Assembly (NCBI RefSeq): GCF_024296685.1
Contig: NZ_CP100763.1
Coordinates: 2,852,001 to 2,916,000 of the forward strand
Length of the DNA stretch: 64,000 nucleotides
Origin: Natrinema marinum
Lineage (GTDB): Archaea > Halobacteriota > Halobacteria > Halobacteriales > Natrialbaceae
Direction of reading: 5' to 3'
The notes below the pieces were generated by a model. The model was not told the DNA's origin. It searched no databases and worked only from the letters and a program-made list of their open reading frames with translations. Positions 43,776 through 44,951 of this stretch are shown here, piece after piece (position 1 is the first letter of the stretch; every line of letters begins with the position of its first letter). The position numbers were made by a program, and so were the translations under genes.

Positions 43776-43829
43776 GTATTCGCCTATGTCACGAGATCCC
43801 AAACTGTTACCGGTGGCGTCGGCTCGCGG

Positions 43830-44204
43830 CTACGCCTCCCGATCGGCGGCCCACTCGAGCAGCGGCTGGAGCCGACGACAGAGTTCGTCGCCGTCGTCGG
43901 TGAGGTCGTACTCGACGCGCGGTGGTATCTCCGCGTACTGCTCGCGCTCGAGGTAGCCGGCGTCGACGAGATCCTCGAGCCGCGTCGAGAGCGTCGAACT
44001 GCTCACGTCCTCGAACGTCTCCTCGATCTCGCCGTAGCGCGCGGGGCCGATCGCGCCGACGACGCAGATCAGTTGCATCGCGTACCGACGGCTGAGGAGG
44101 TCCATCAGCCCGTCGAGTTGGCAGTAGCAGTCGAGATCGCACGGCGTATCGGATGCATCGGTCGTCTCGGCCGGCTCGAGTCGGTCGTCGTCGGATTCGC
44201 TCAT
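43830..44204 (-). CDS. HxlR-family winged-helix regulator with Cys-rich N-terminus
   Basis: This 124-residue transcription factor has a winged helix matching HxlR/MarR-type proteins (LLSRRYAMQLICVVGAIGPA, RYGEIEETFEDVSSSTLSTR, LEDLVDAGYLEREQYAEIPP). A preceding acidic segment holds three cysteines, Cys22, Cys26 and Cys28, in PCDLDCYCQL. Cysteines in that position could sense a thiophilic metal or oxidant. The gene is divergent from the organomercurial-lyase-like gene, 76 bases away across a set of inverted repeats, and is a likely regulator of it. Confidence 0.85.
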   Translation of the reverse strand: MSESDDDRLEPAETTDASDTPCDLDCYCQLDGLMDLLSRRYAMQLICVVGAIGPARYGEIEETFEDVSSSTLSTRLEDLVDAGYLEREQYAEIPPRVEYDLTDDGDELCRRLQPLLEWAADREA

Positions 44205-44216
44205 GGCTTTCGGTCA

Positions 44217-44275
44217 CCGAAGTTACTCCGTTACTTCGGAGTCGACAGTACAAGTACTTCGCGACTCGAAGTAAC
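44217..44275. promoter_or_regulatory. Multiple inverted-repeat operator between the HxlR and MerB-like genes
   Basis: Four related half-sites of ACTTCG type occur in 59 bases. CCGAAGT (44217-44223) pairs with ACTTCGG (44233-44239). GTTACTTCGGAGTCG (44230-44244) pairs with CGACTCGAAGTAAC (44262-44275) except for one extra G. TACTTCG (44255-44261) pairs with CGAAGTA (44267-44273). This arrangement fits binding of dimeric HxlR proteins at both promoters, hence joint control of the regulator and its neighbour. Confidence 0.65.
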
Positions 44276-44280
44276 GTCGT

Positions 44281-44931
44281 ATGACGGAGCAAACCTGCGA
44301 GTGTTGCGGCACAGTCGAAAGTCGGTCCCCGGAAAAAGACCGAGAGGAAGAAGCGTCGGTCGATCGGTGGGTCGGTGACGGATCGGTCATGGAAACGCCC
44401 CTGCCGGACGACGTTCGGACGGCGATGGACCGGTTCTTCGGCGACGCGTCGATCGCGACGCTCGAGGACTGGGTCACCGAACTCCGGGCACGGACCGGCG
44501 GCGGATCGATCGACGTCGATGATCTCTGTCACGCCGAGGGAGAGACGCCCCACTGGGGCGACCTCGACGGGAGGCGGTACCACTTCCGATGTTTCTACGA
44601 TGCCGTCGCGCTGGCCGAACTGGCCTCGGAGCCAGTCGAGATCCGCACGGAGAGTCCGAGTGGGGCAGTCATCGAGGCTCGAGCGACGGGCGACGGCGAC
44701 CTCAGCGCGACGCCGTCGACGGCGGCCGTCTCGTTCGGGATCGTGACCGACGACTCGGTGACGGACGGAACACCGACGCTCGAGGACGCCTACAGTGCGA
44801 TCTGTCCGGCAGTCAGGGCCTTCCCGACGCGGGAGGCCTACGAACGGTGGGCAGCAGAAACGAACGCGGCGACTATCGGTATGCCGGCATCGGCCGCGAC
44901 AGCGGTCGCAGCCGGACTCGTAGACGAATAG
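44281..44931 (+). CDS. Organomercurial lyase (MerB)-like protein
   Basis: This 216-residue protein contains the alkylmercury-lyase catalytic set. In MerB the active residues are Cys96, Asp99 and Cys159. Here Cys104 and Asp107 lie in HFRCFYDAVALAEL and Cys175 in YSAICPAVRAFPTREAYERW, with the family's IRTESPSGAVIEARATGDG and PSTAAVSFGIV. MerB cleaves carbon-mercury bonds to give Hg(II), normally reduced by MerA, but no merA is in the window. The N-terminus begins MTEQTCECCGTVES, with a possible metal-binding CECC. Activity on mercury compounds is likely but unproved; some MerB-like proteins may have other thiol-metal roles. Confidence 0.8.
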   Translation: MTEQTCECCGTVESRSPEKDREEEASVDRWVGDGSVMETPLPDDVRTAMDRFFGDASIATLEDWVTELRARTGGGSIDVDDLCHAEGETPHWGDLDGRRYHFRCFYDAVALAELASEPVEIRTESPSGAVIEARATGDGDLSATPSTAAVSFGIVTDDSVTDGTPTLEDAYSAICPAVRAFPTREAYERWAAETNAATIGMPASAATAVAAGLVDE

Positions 44932-44951
44932 ATCCCGTTCCCTTTCCCCAG

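Follow-up and report, generated by a model that had tools for sequence, protein, structure and literature searches.

The window (the whole 64-kb stretch of Natrinema marinum DNA that was analyzed) contains a merB-like gene and an HxlR-family regulator gene that point away from each other across a 76-base gap (Table 1). Both proteins exceed the gathering cut-offs of their Pfam families: the 216-amino-acid (aa) enzyme scores 54 bits against MerB (PF03243; cut-off, 27) and the 124-aa regulator 62 bits against HxlR (PF01638; cut-off, 20.8). An initial annotation of the locus had proposed this divergent pair, which both scores bear out and which recurs across the order.

Table 1. Features of the merB-HxlR locus in window coordinates
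Feature	Position	Strand	Basis and remarks
Two-gene module, approximate extent	43815..44932	.	Flank alignments; the whole unit is lacking from this site in relatives
HxlR-family regulator gene	43830..44204	-	124 aa; Cys22, Cys26, Cys28, Cys47; Pfam HxlR, subfamily profile
Cys47 codon	44064..44066	-	Regulator alignment; conserved as the third Cys when merB is the linked gene, replaced by Ser when merA is
Cys28 codon	44121..44123	-	Alignment to 7bzd/7bze; counterpart of the Cys11 sensor of Bacillus HxlR
Cys26 codon	44127..44129	-	Regulator alignment; part of CxC motif
ACTTCG half-site 1	44218..44223	-	Exact hexamer count, alignment; outer, less conserved
Operator-like element, 42 bp, TACTTYGGASTYGACAGTAYAANNACTTCG-N5-YRAAGTA	44232..44273	+	Alignment, matrix scans; between merB and HxlR genes
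ACTTCG half-site 2	44233..44238	+	Exact hexamer count, alignment
TATA-like TACAA	44249..44253	+	Intergenic alignment; TATAA in most relatives; ~30 bases before merB ATG
ACTTCG half-site 3	44256..44261	+	Exact hexamer count, alignment
ACTTCG half-site 4	44267..44272	-	Hexamer count, alignment; inverted relative to half-site 3, 5 bases between
merB-like gene	44281..44931	+	216 aa; C104/D107/C175 within an alkylmercury lyase fold; Pfam MerB, structure match
Catalytic Cys104 codon (bacterial C96)	44590..44592	+	Profile alignment; frame conservation
Catalytic Asp107 codon (bacterial D99)	44599..44601	+	Profile alignment; frame conservation
Catalytic Cys175 codon (bacterial C159)	44803..44805	+	Profile alignment; frame conservation

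The enzyme is an expected though divergent MerB, for which organomercurial cleavage is predicted. A profile of 34 haloarchaeal relatives matches solved bacterial MerB (four distinct sequences) with E values of 2.1e-4 to 8.1e-3, and in this alignment Cys104, Asp107, and Cys175, the three lyase residues named in the initial annotation, fall on C96, D99, and C159, given as the catalytic positions of bacterial MerB in a passage of PMC8261052. Of 81 MerB frames from haloarchaea (80 fetched loci plus the window), 79 have the triad intact; one of the two exceptions has Gly/Val/Cys (L106), and the other is a fragment (L107). The AlphaFold model (pLDDT, 86.2) has MerB chains as its top Foldseek match (E = 6.5e-8), and the overlay on MerB that had been suggested earlier gives a Z score of 15.2 against the bacterial R831b structure 3f0o, with an rmsd of 2.7 over 145 residues; the next family, the copper chaperone NosL, reaches a Z of 5.0.

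Fold and catalytic Cys-Asp-Cys are thus shared with bacterial MerB, but the window protein is only ~17% identical to it and differs in its N-terminal part. Scores against the NCBIfam MerB equivalogs NF009710 and NF033555 are 26.5 and 26.1 bits, so far under the cut-offs of 193 and 200 that we regard the protein as divergent; PGAP nevertheless names its relatives merB, the nearest named ones being from Natrinema species (69 to 72% identity). Near-invariant Cys83 and His91 (window 44527-44553; 93% and 95% of the 81 frames), extra relative to bacterial MerB, could form an additional metal ligand pair near the active site. About half of the relatives also carry a CxCC tail at the N terminus (window 44296-44307), which might bind or relay mercury. 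As a mark of linkage to HxlR, an N-terminal C..C tail performed weakly, occurring in 25 of 47 linked and 12 of 34 unlinked proteins.

Consistently with the initial annotation, no merA accompanies this merB: the best MerA match in the genome scores 351.6 bits, below the model cut-off of 454.45, in an assembly of one 3.77-Mb contig from which a plasmid may be missing. Across 392 genomes of the order, MerB is present in 68 and MerA over the cut-off in 51, and the 9 genomes that have both are what chance predicts (hypergeometric P = 0.54), which led us to reject the idea that merB follows merA. For the most part merA and merB are found at different loci, and each has a regulator copy to itself. 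According to PMC8261052, MerA is missing from about half of the genomes that encode MerB, and 11 archaeal genomes encode MerB; a MerB in a haloarchaeon is also noted in part of PMC3600143.

We found the merB-HxlR pair to be a conserved haloarchaeal module. After dropping four second-piece MerB rows, which repeat the frame of a listed row, a regulator of this HxlR subfamily lies within 1.5 kb of 47 of 82 merB places and 43 of 53 merA places; the latter 43 are all divergent, each with its own copy, and the other 10 merA places have no such regulator nearby. Relative to the 81 MerB frames, the regulator is divergent and upstream in 40 cases, downstream and convergent in 6, and downstream on the same strand in 1, while 34 frames have none within 1.2 kb. 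The subfamily profile, which the window regulator matches with 183.5 bits, recognizes 128 places in 117 genomes (47 near merB, 43 near merA, 38 near neither). Only four HxlR genes, one of them a subfamily copy at E ≤ 1e-25, are present in the genome of the window, and the pair recurs with the same spacing throughout the order; chance adjacency is therefore negligible, and we rejected it.

Within the genus, the module behaves as a cassette. At six loci in five genomes it is missing entirely and the flanks are joined; at the same site in other relatives, two loci are left with just the 3' end of merB and another with part of the regulator, and two retain the module. Regulator, element, and enzyme thus form a single unit in this respect. 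The remnants suggest loss of the cassette in some lineages. The two merB 3'-end remnants (L300 and L304), which point to decay, are in genomes without the regulator at that chromosomal site.

The initial annotation had counted at least four ACTTCG-type half-sites in the intergenic DNA (44205-44280), and exactly four exact copies are present there, out of 52 in the 64-kb window. In the aligned intergenic DNA of 40 divergent merB loci, half-sites 2 to 4 belong to a core of fixed spacing, TACTTYGGASTYGACAGTATAANNACTTCG-N5-YRAAGTA, at window positions 44232-44273. Judging from its position, the TACAA sequence within this stretch is likely the merB promoter core. A matrix trained on 37 divergent merB loci, with a score above 15 taken as a match, finds the element upstream of 41 of 43 merA-linked regulators and 20 of 21 regulators linked to a small protein (see below), with a maximum of 3.1 over 590 shuffled regions. 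It finds none at the nine HxlR genes without a partner, at the single one near a tandem arsM-like gene, or at the 34 merB frames without the regulator, whose best scores are near or under zero. Where the regulator is displaced from merB (seven loci), all seven loci carry two elements, one before each gene. Together these distributions suggest that the 42-bp element is a putative HxlR operator. In the window's genome, no other copy occurs at up to three mismatches in the first 30 bases, and no further target of the regulator was found on this basis.

When the 392 genomes were scanned with a DNA pattern, 42 matches in 39 genomes were obtained (0 with the reversed control), 11 of them beyond the known merB loci. 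All 11 adjoin the same HxlR, and the divergent genes are one merA (TIGR02053, 503.9 bits; cut-off, 454.45), two arsM fusions (NF008823, 336.4 and 334.7 bits; cut-off, 263), one diverged merB, and seven genes for a small Cys-Cys protein. In both fusions (L199 and L202), the N-terminal domain joined to the arsenite methyltransferase is the same domain as the small protein. The small protein excepted, all recognized targets of the switch are metal(loid) enzymes. The small family with its conserved Cys-Cys (~115 to 145 aa; e.g., L197:6046-6417, L193:5593-6003, and L154:5503-5838) has no Pfam match, and a poor model of it (pLDDT, 70; three sequences) has no PDB match under E = 0.001. Relatives on Adhaeribacter plasmids sit in ars operons, and a Rhodococcus relative lies within a MerR-type regulator adjoining a bile acid:sodium symporter; among haloarchaea, such symporters are found at five of the eight loci that combine merB with the small protein and at 1 of 42 simple merB loci.

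Three cysteines (Cys22, Cys26, and Cys28) precede the winged helix of the window regulator, as was first annotated. A fourth, Cys47, had been missed and is more conserved than Cys22. Cys28 aligns with sensor Cys11 of Bacillus HxlR (7bzd), which places the protein with those HxlR/DUF24 regulators (Bacillus HxlR, HypR, YodB) that carry a sensor Cys where helix 1 begins in the same winged-helix fold. It differs from them in its CxC motif, its third Cys, its linkage to mercury and arsenic genes, and the absence of the Cys11-Lys13 pair that senses formaldehyde: Leu30 stands in the place of Lys13, and Leu is found there in 89% of 47 regulators.

The cysteine sets vary with the target gene. We surveyed 118 fetched regulators, out of the 128 HxlR places, assigned by nearest target. 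All 43 merA-linked regulators, of which 40 face a MerA over the cut-off, two a lower-scoring MerA-like protein (L233 and L235), and one a MerA below it (L262), have Cys26, Cys28, an extra Cys at most eight residues before Cys26, and Ser at position 47. The combination Cys26-Cys28-Cys47 is present in 42 of 44 merB-linked regulators, one exception being at the L107 locus with its broken merB, and in 21 of 21 small-protein-linked ones; Cys47 occurs in three of nine regulators without a recognized target. In the tree, merA-linked regulators form one clade (support, 98/82), and merB- and small-protein-linked ones are intermixed; here supported branches require the merB label to have changed at least four times. 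Targets have therefore been swapped under one switch, and for the same reason the rows of the survey are not independent.

CxC by itself was rejected as a mercury-specific mark. HxlRs with this motif are also found in other orders, where ABC-2 genes are among their neighbors, and Cys47 is present in 2 of 15 that were fetched and inspected by eye. The third Cys tracks metal genes more closely than CxC does, although three of the nine partnerless haloarchaeal regulators have it. Related CxC HxlRs of other orders of the phylum (L276 to L285) include several beside ABC-2 type transporter genes.

We favor, with a probability of roughly 0.6, the reading that the regulator is a thiol-based repressor responsive to mercury or arsenic, which would take the role of MerR and form a self-contained detoxification module with MerB. 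A dimer of the winged-helix protein would bind the 42-bp element and so cover both the merB promoter and its own. As inducer, a thiophilic metal (Hg(II) or an organomercurial R-Hg+ being the most likely) would be held by the thiolates of Cys26 and Cys28 in the first helix and of Cys47, probably in helix 2 of the other subunit. Such a geometry is suggested by Bacillus HxlR, in which, as a portion of PMC7835342 describes, the dimer interface includes Cys11 of helix 1, and Met26, from helix 2 of the other subunit, packs against this site. Cys47 aligns with residue 30, one helical turn past Met26, so it could join Cys26 and Cys28 of the partner in a three-thiolate site. Metal binding would shift the dimer interface, the DNA would be released, and both genes would be turned on. 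MerB would then cut the C-Hg bond by protonolysis through Cys104, Asp107, and Cys175, by analogy with the known family; since the genome has no MerA, the freed Hg(II) would presumably be dealt with by cellular thiols, sulfide, or efflux.

Several findings weigh against this reading: the 34 merB frames without a regulator, the chance-level co-occurrence of merB and merA, the equivalog scores of the enzyme, the nonindependence of the surveyed regulators, and the CxC HxlRs outside the order without mer genes. A further one is the mode of action. Bacillus HxlR, the best-studied relative, activates formaldehyde genes and gains DNA binding after reacting with its ligand (according to part of PMC7835342), and the haloarchaeal protein could likewise be a metal-triggered activator, a variant compatible with the other parts of the proposal. 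We consider this unlikely, because the presumed TATA box falls within the element, which also extends close to the start codon, an arrangement that would suit promoter blocking and thus favors repression.

It is rather unlikely that the regulator is instead a thiol-redox or electrophile sensor like HypR, YodB, and QsrR, with merB and merA as parts of a general thiol-stress response. The alignment of Cys28 with the conserved DUF24 sensor Cys fits such a role, as do the nearest NCBIfam models, the redox regulators RrpA and RrpB (47 and 37 bits, far under the cut-off), and the response of Bacillus subtilis relatives to HOCl, quinones, and diamide reported in a section of PMC6943732. A redox sensor, however, would not readily account for extra cysteines that vary with the target gene or for recognized targets that, the small protein apart, are all metal(loid) enzymes, and the replacement of Lys13 argues against the formaldehyde cross-link. 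The merA that appears in the part of PMC6943732 concerned is a Staphylococcus disulfide reductase under the Rrf2-family HypR.

Because arsM fusions, as well as a small protein with relatives in ars operons, lie opposite this type of regulator and its element, the ligand could also be As(III). The symporters at loci with merB plus the small protein, and the one beside the Rhodococcus MerR-type relative, fit this too. Yet a primarily arsenic-directed response to As(III) or methylarsenite, in which the MerB-fold enzyme would act on organoarsenicals or another organometal, is improbable, since the regulator stands at 43 of 53 haloarchaeal merA places versus two clear arsM fusions, symporters occur at just 1 of 42 simple merB loci like that of the window, and the enzyme retains the full C-Hg lyase triad.

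Beyond the repressor reading itself, a more detailed proposal, to which we give slightly less than an even chance, is that the whole haloarchaeal subfamily is a mercury sensor serving in place of MerR, with an intersubunit three-thiolate site built on the ancestral sensor Cys, a third Cys exchanged between two sites as regulators shifted between merA and merB, and one conserved operator serving merB, merA, arsM fusions, and the small Cys-Cys protein. If so, an archaeal class using a redox- and aldehyde-sensor family would offer a clean case of a metal sensor derived from an electrophile sensor, and the choice between Cys47 and the extra N-terminal Cys would be a built-in natural experiment.

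Most of the known mercury switches are MerR proteins; a few lineages have other types. Like a MerR-controlled mer operon, in which bacterial merB is usually placed, the present system has a regulator adjoining its target, a promoter element between them, and mercury enzymes as targets; unlike it, the regulator is of an unrelated family, and the window merB stands alone with HxlR, accompanied by neither MerR nor an over-cut-off MerA. We found no HxlR control of mer genes in the open-license literature searched; part of a paper on mercury resistance names HxlR only through the title of a reference. GenBank records already name the protein family (PGAP, "organomercurial lyase") but call the regulator only a helix-turn-helix protein, and the operator and the link to merA and arsM are absent from the annotation. 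The arrangement is real and conserved and, as a putative regulatory system, better supported than was first claimed. A stand-alone archaeal merB under HxlR had been put forward as a new arrangement or a new enzyme role: the HxlR link holds up, with its conserved element, third Cys, and subfamily members at merA and arsM; stand-alone merB is not new, judging from the pertinent part of PMC8261052; and a new enzyme role is not needed, because relatives of the same switch precede mercuric reductase. The same source, in a passage on the subject, states that organomercury demethylation in Archaea had not yet been described, and for this process the locus offers a regulator, an operator, and a set of inducers that can be tested. 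The HxlR switch is also a candidate biosensor working in brine.

A few further arrangements of haloarchaeal mer genes were observed. At two loci (L075 and L090; G102:C4 and G181:C3), a different type of MerB is separated from merA by 363 bases, and neither HxlR nor the element is present. Two merB copies of equal score and length near opposite ends of one contig (L076 and L077; G102:C2) are perhaps an assembly repeat. In several genomes, a second, MerA-like oxidoreductase of ~400 bits adjoins the true merA (e.g., G338:C2:82388-83722 and G141:C4:164944-166278).
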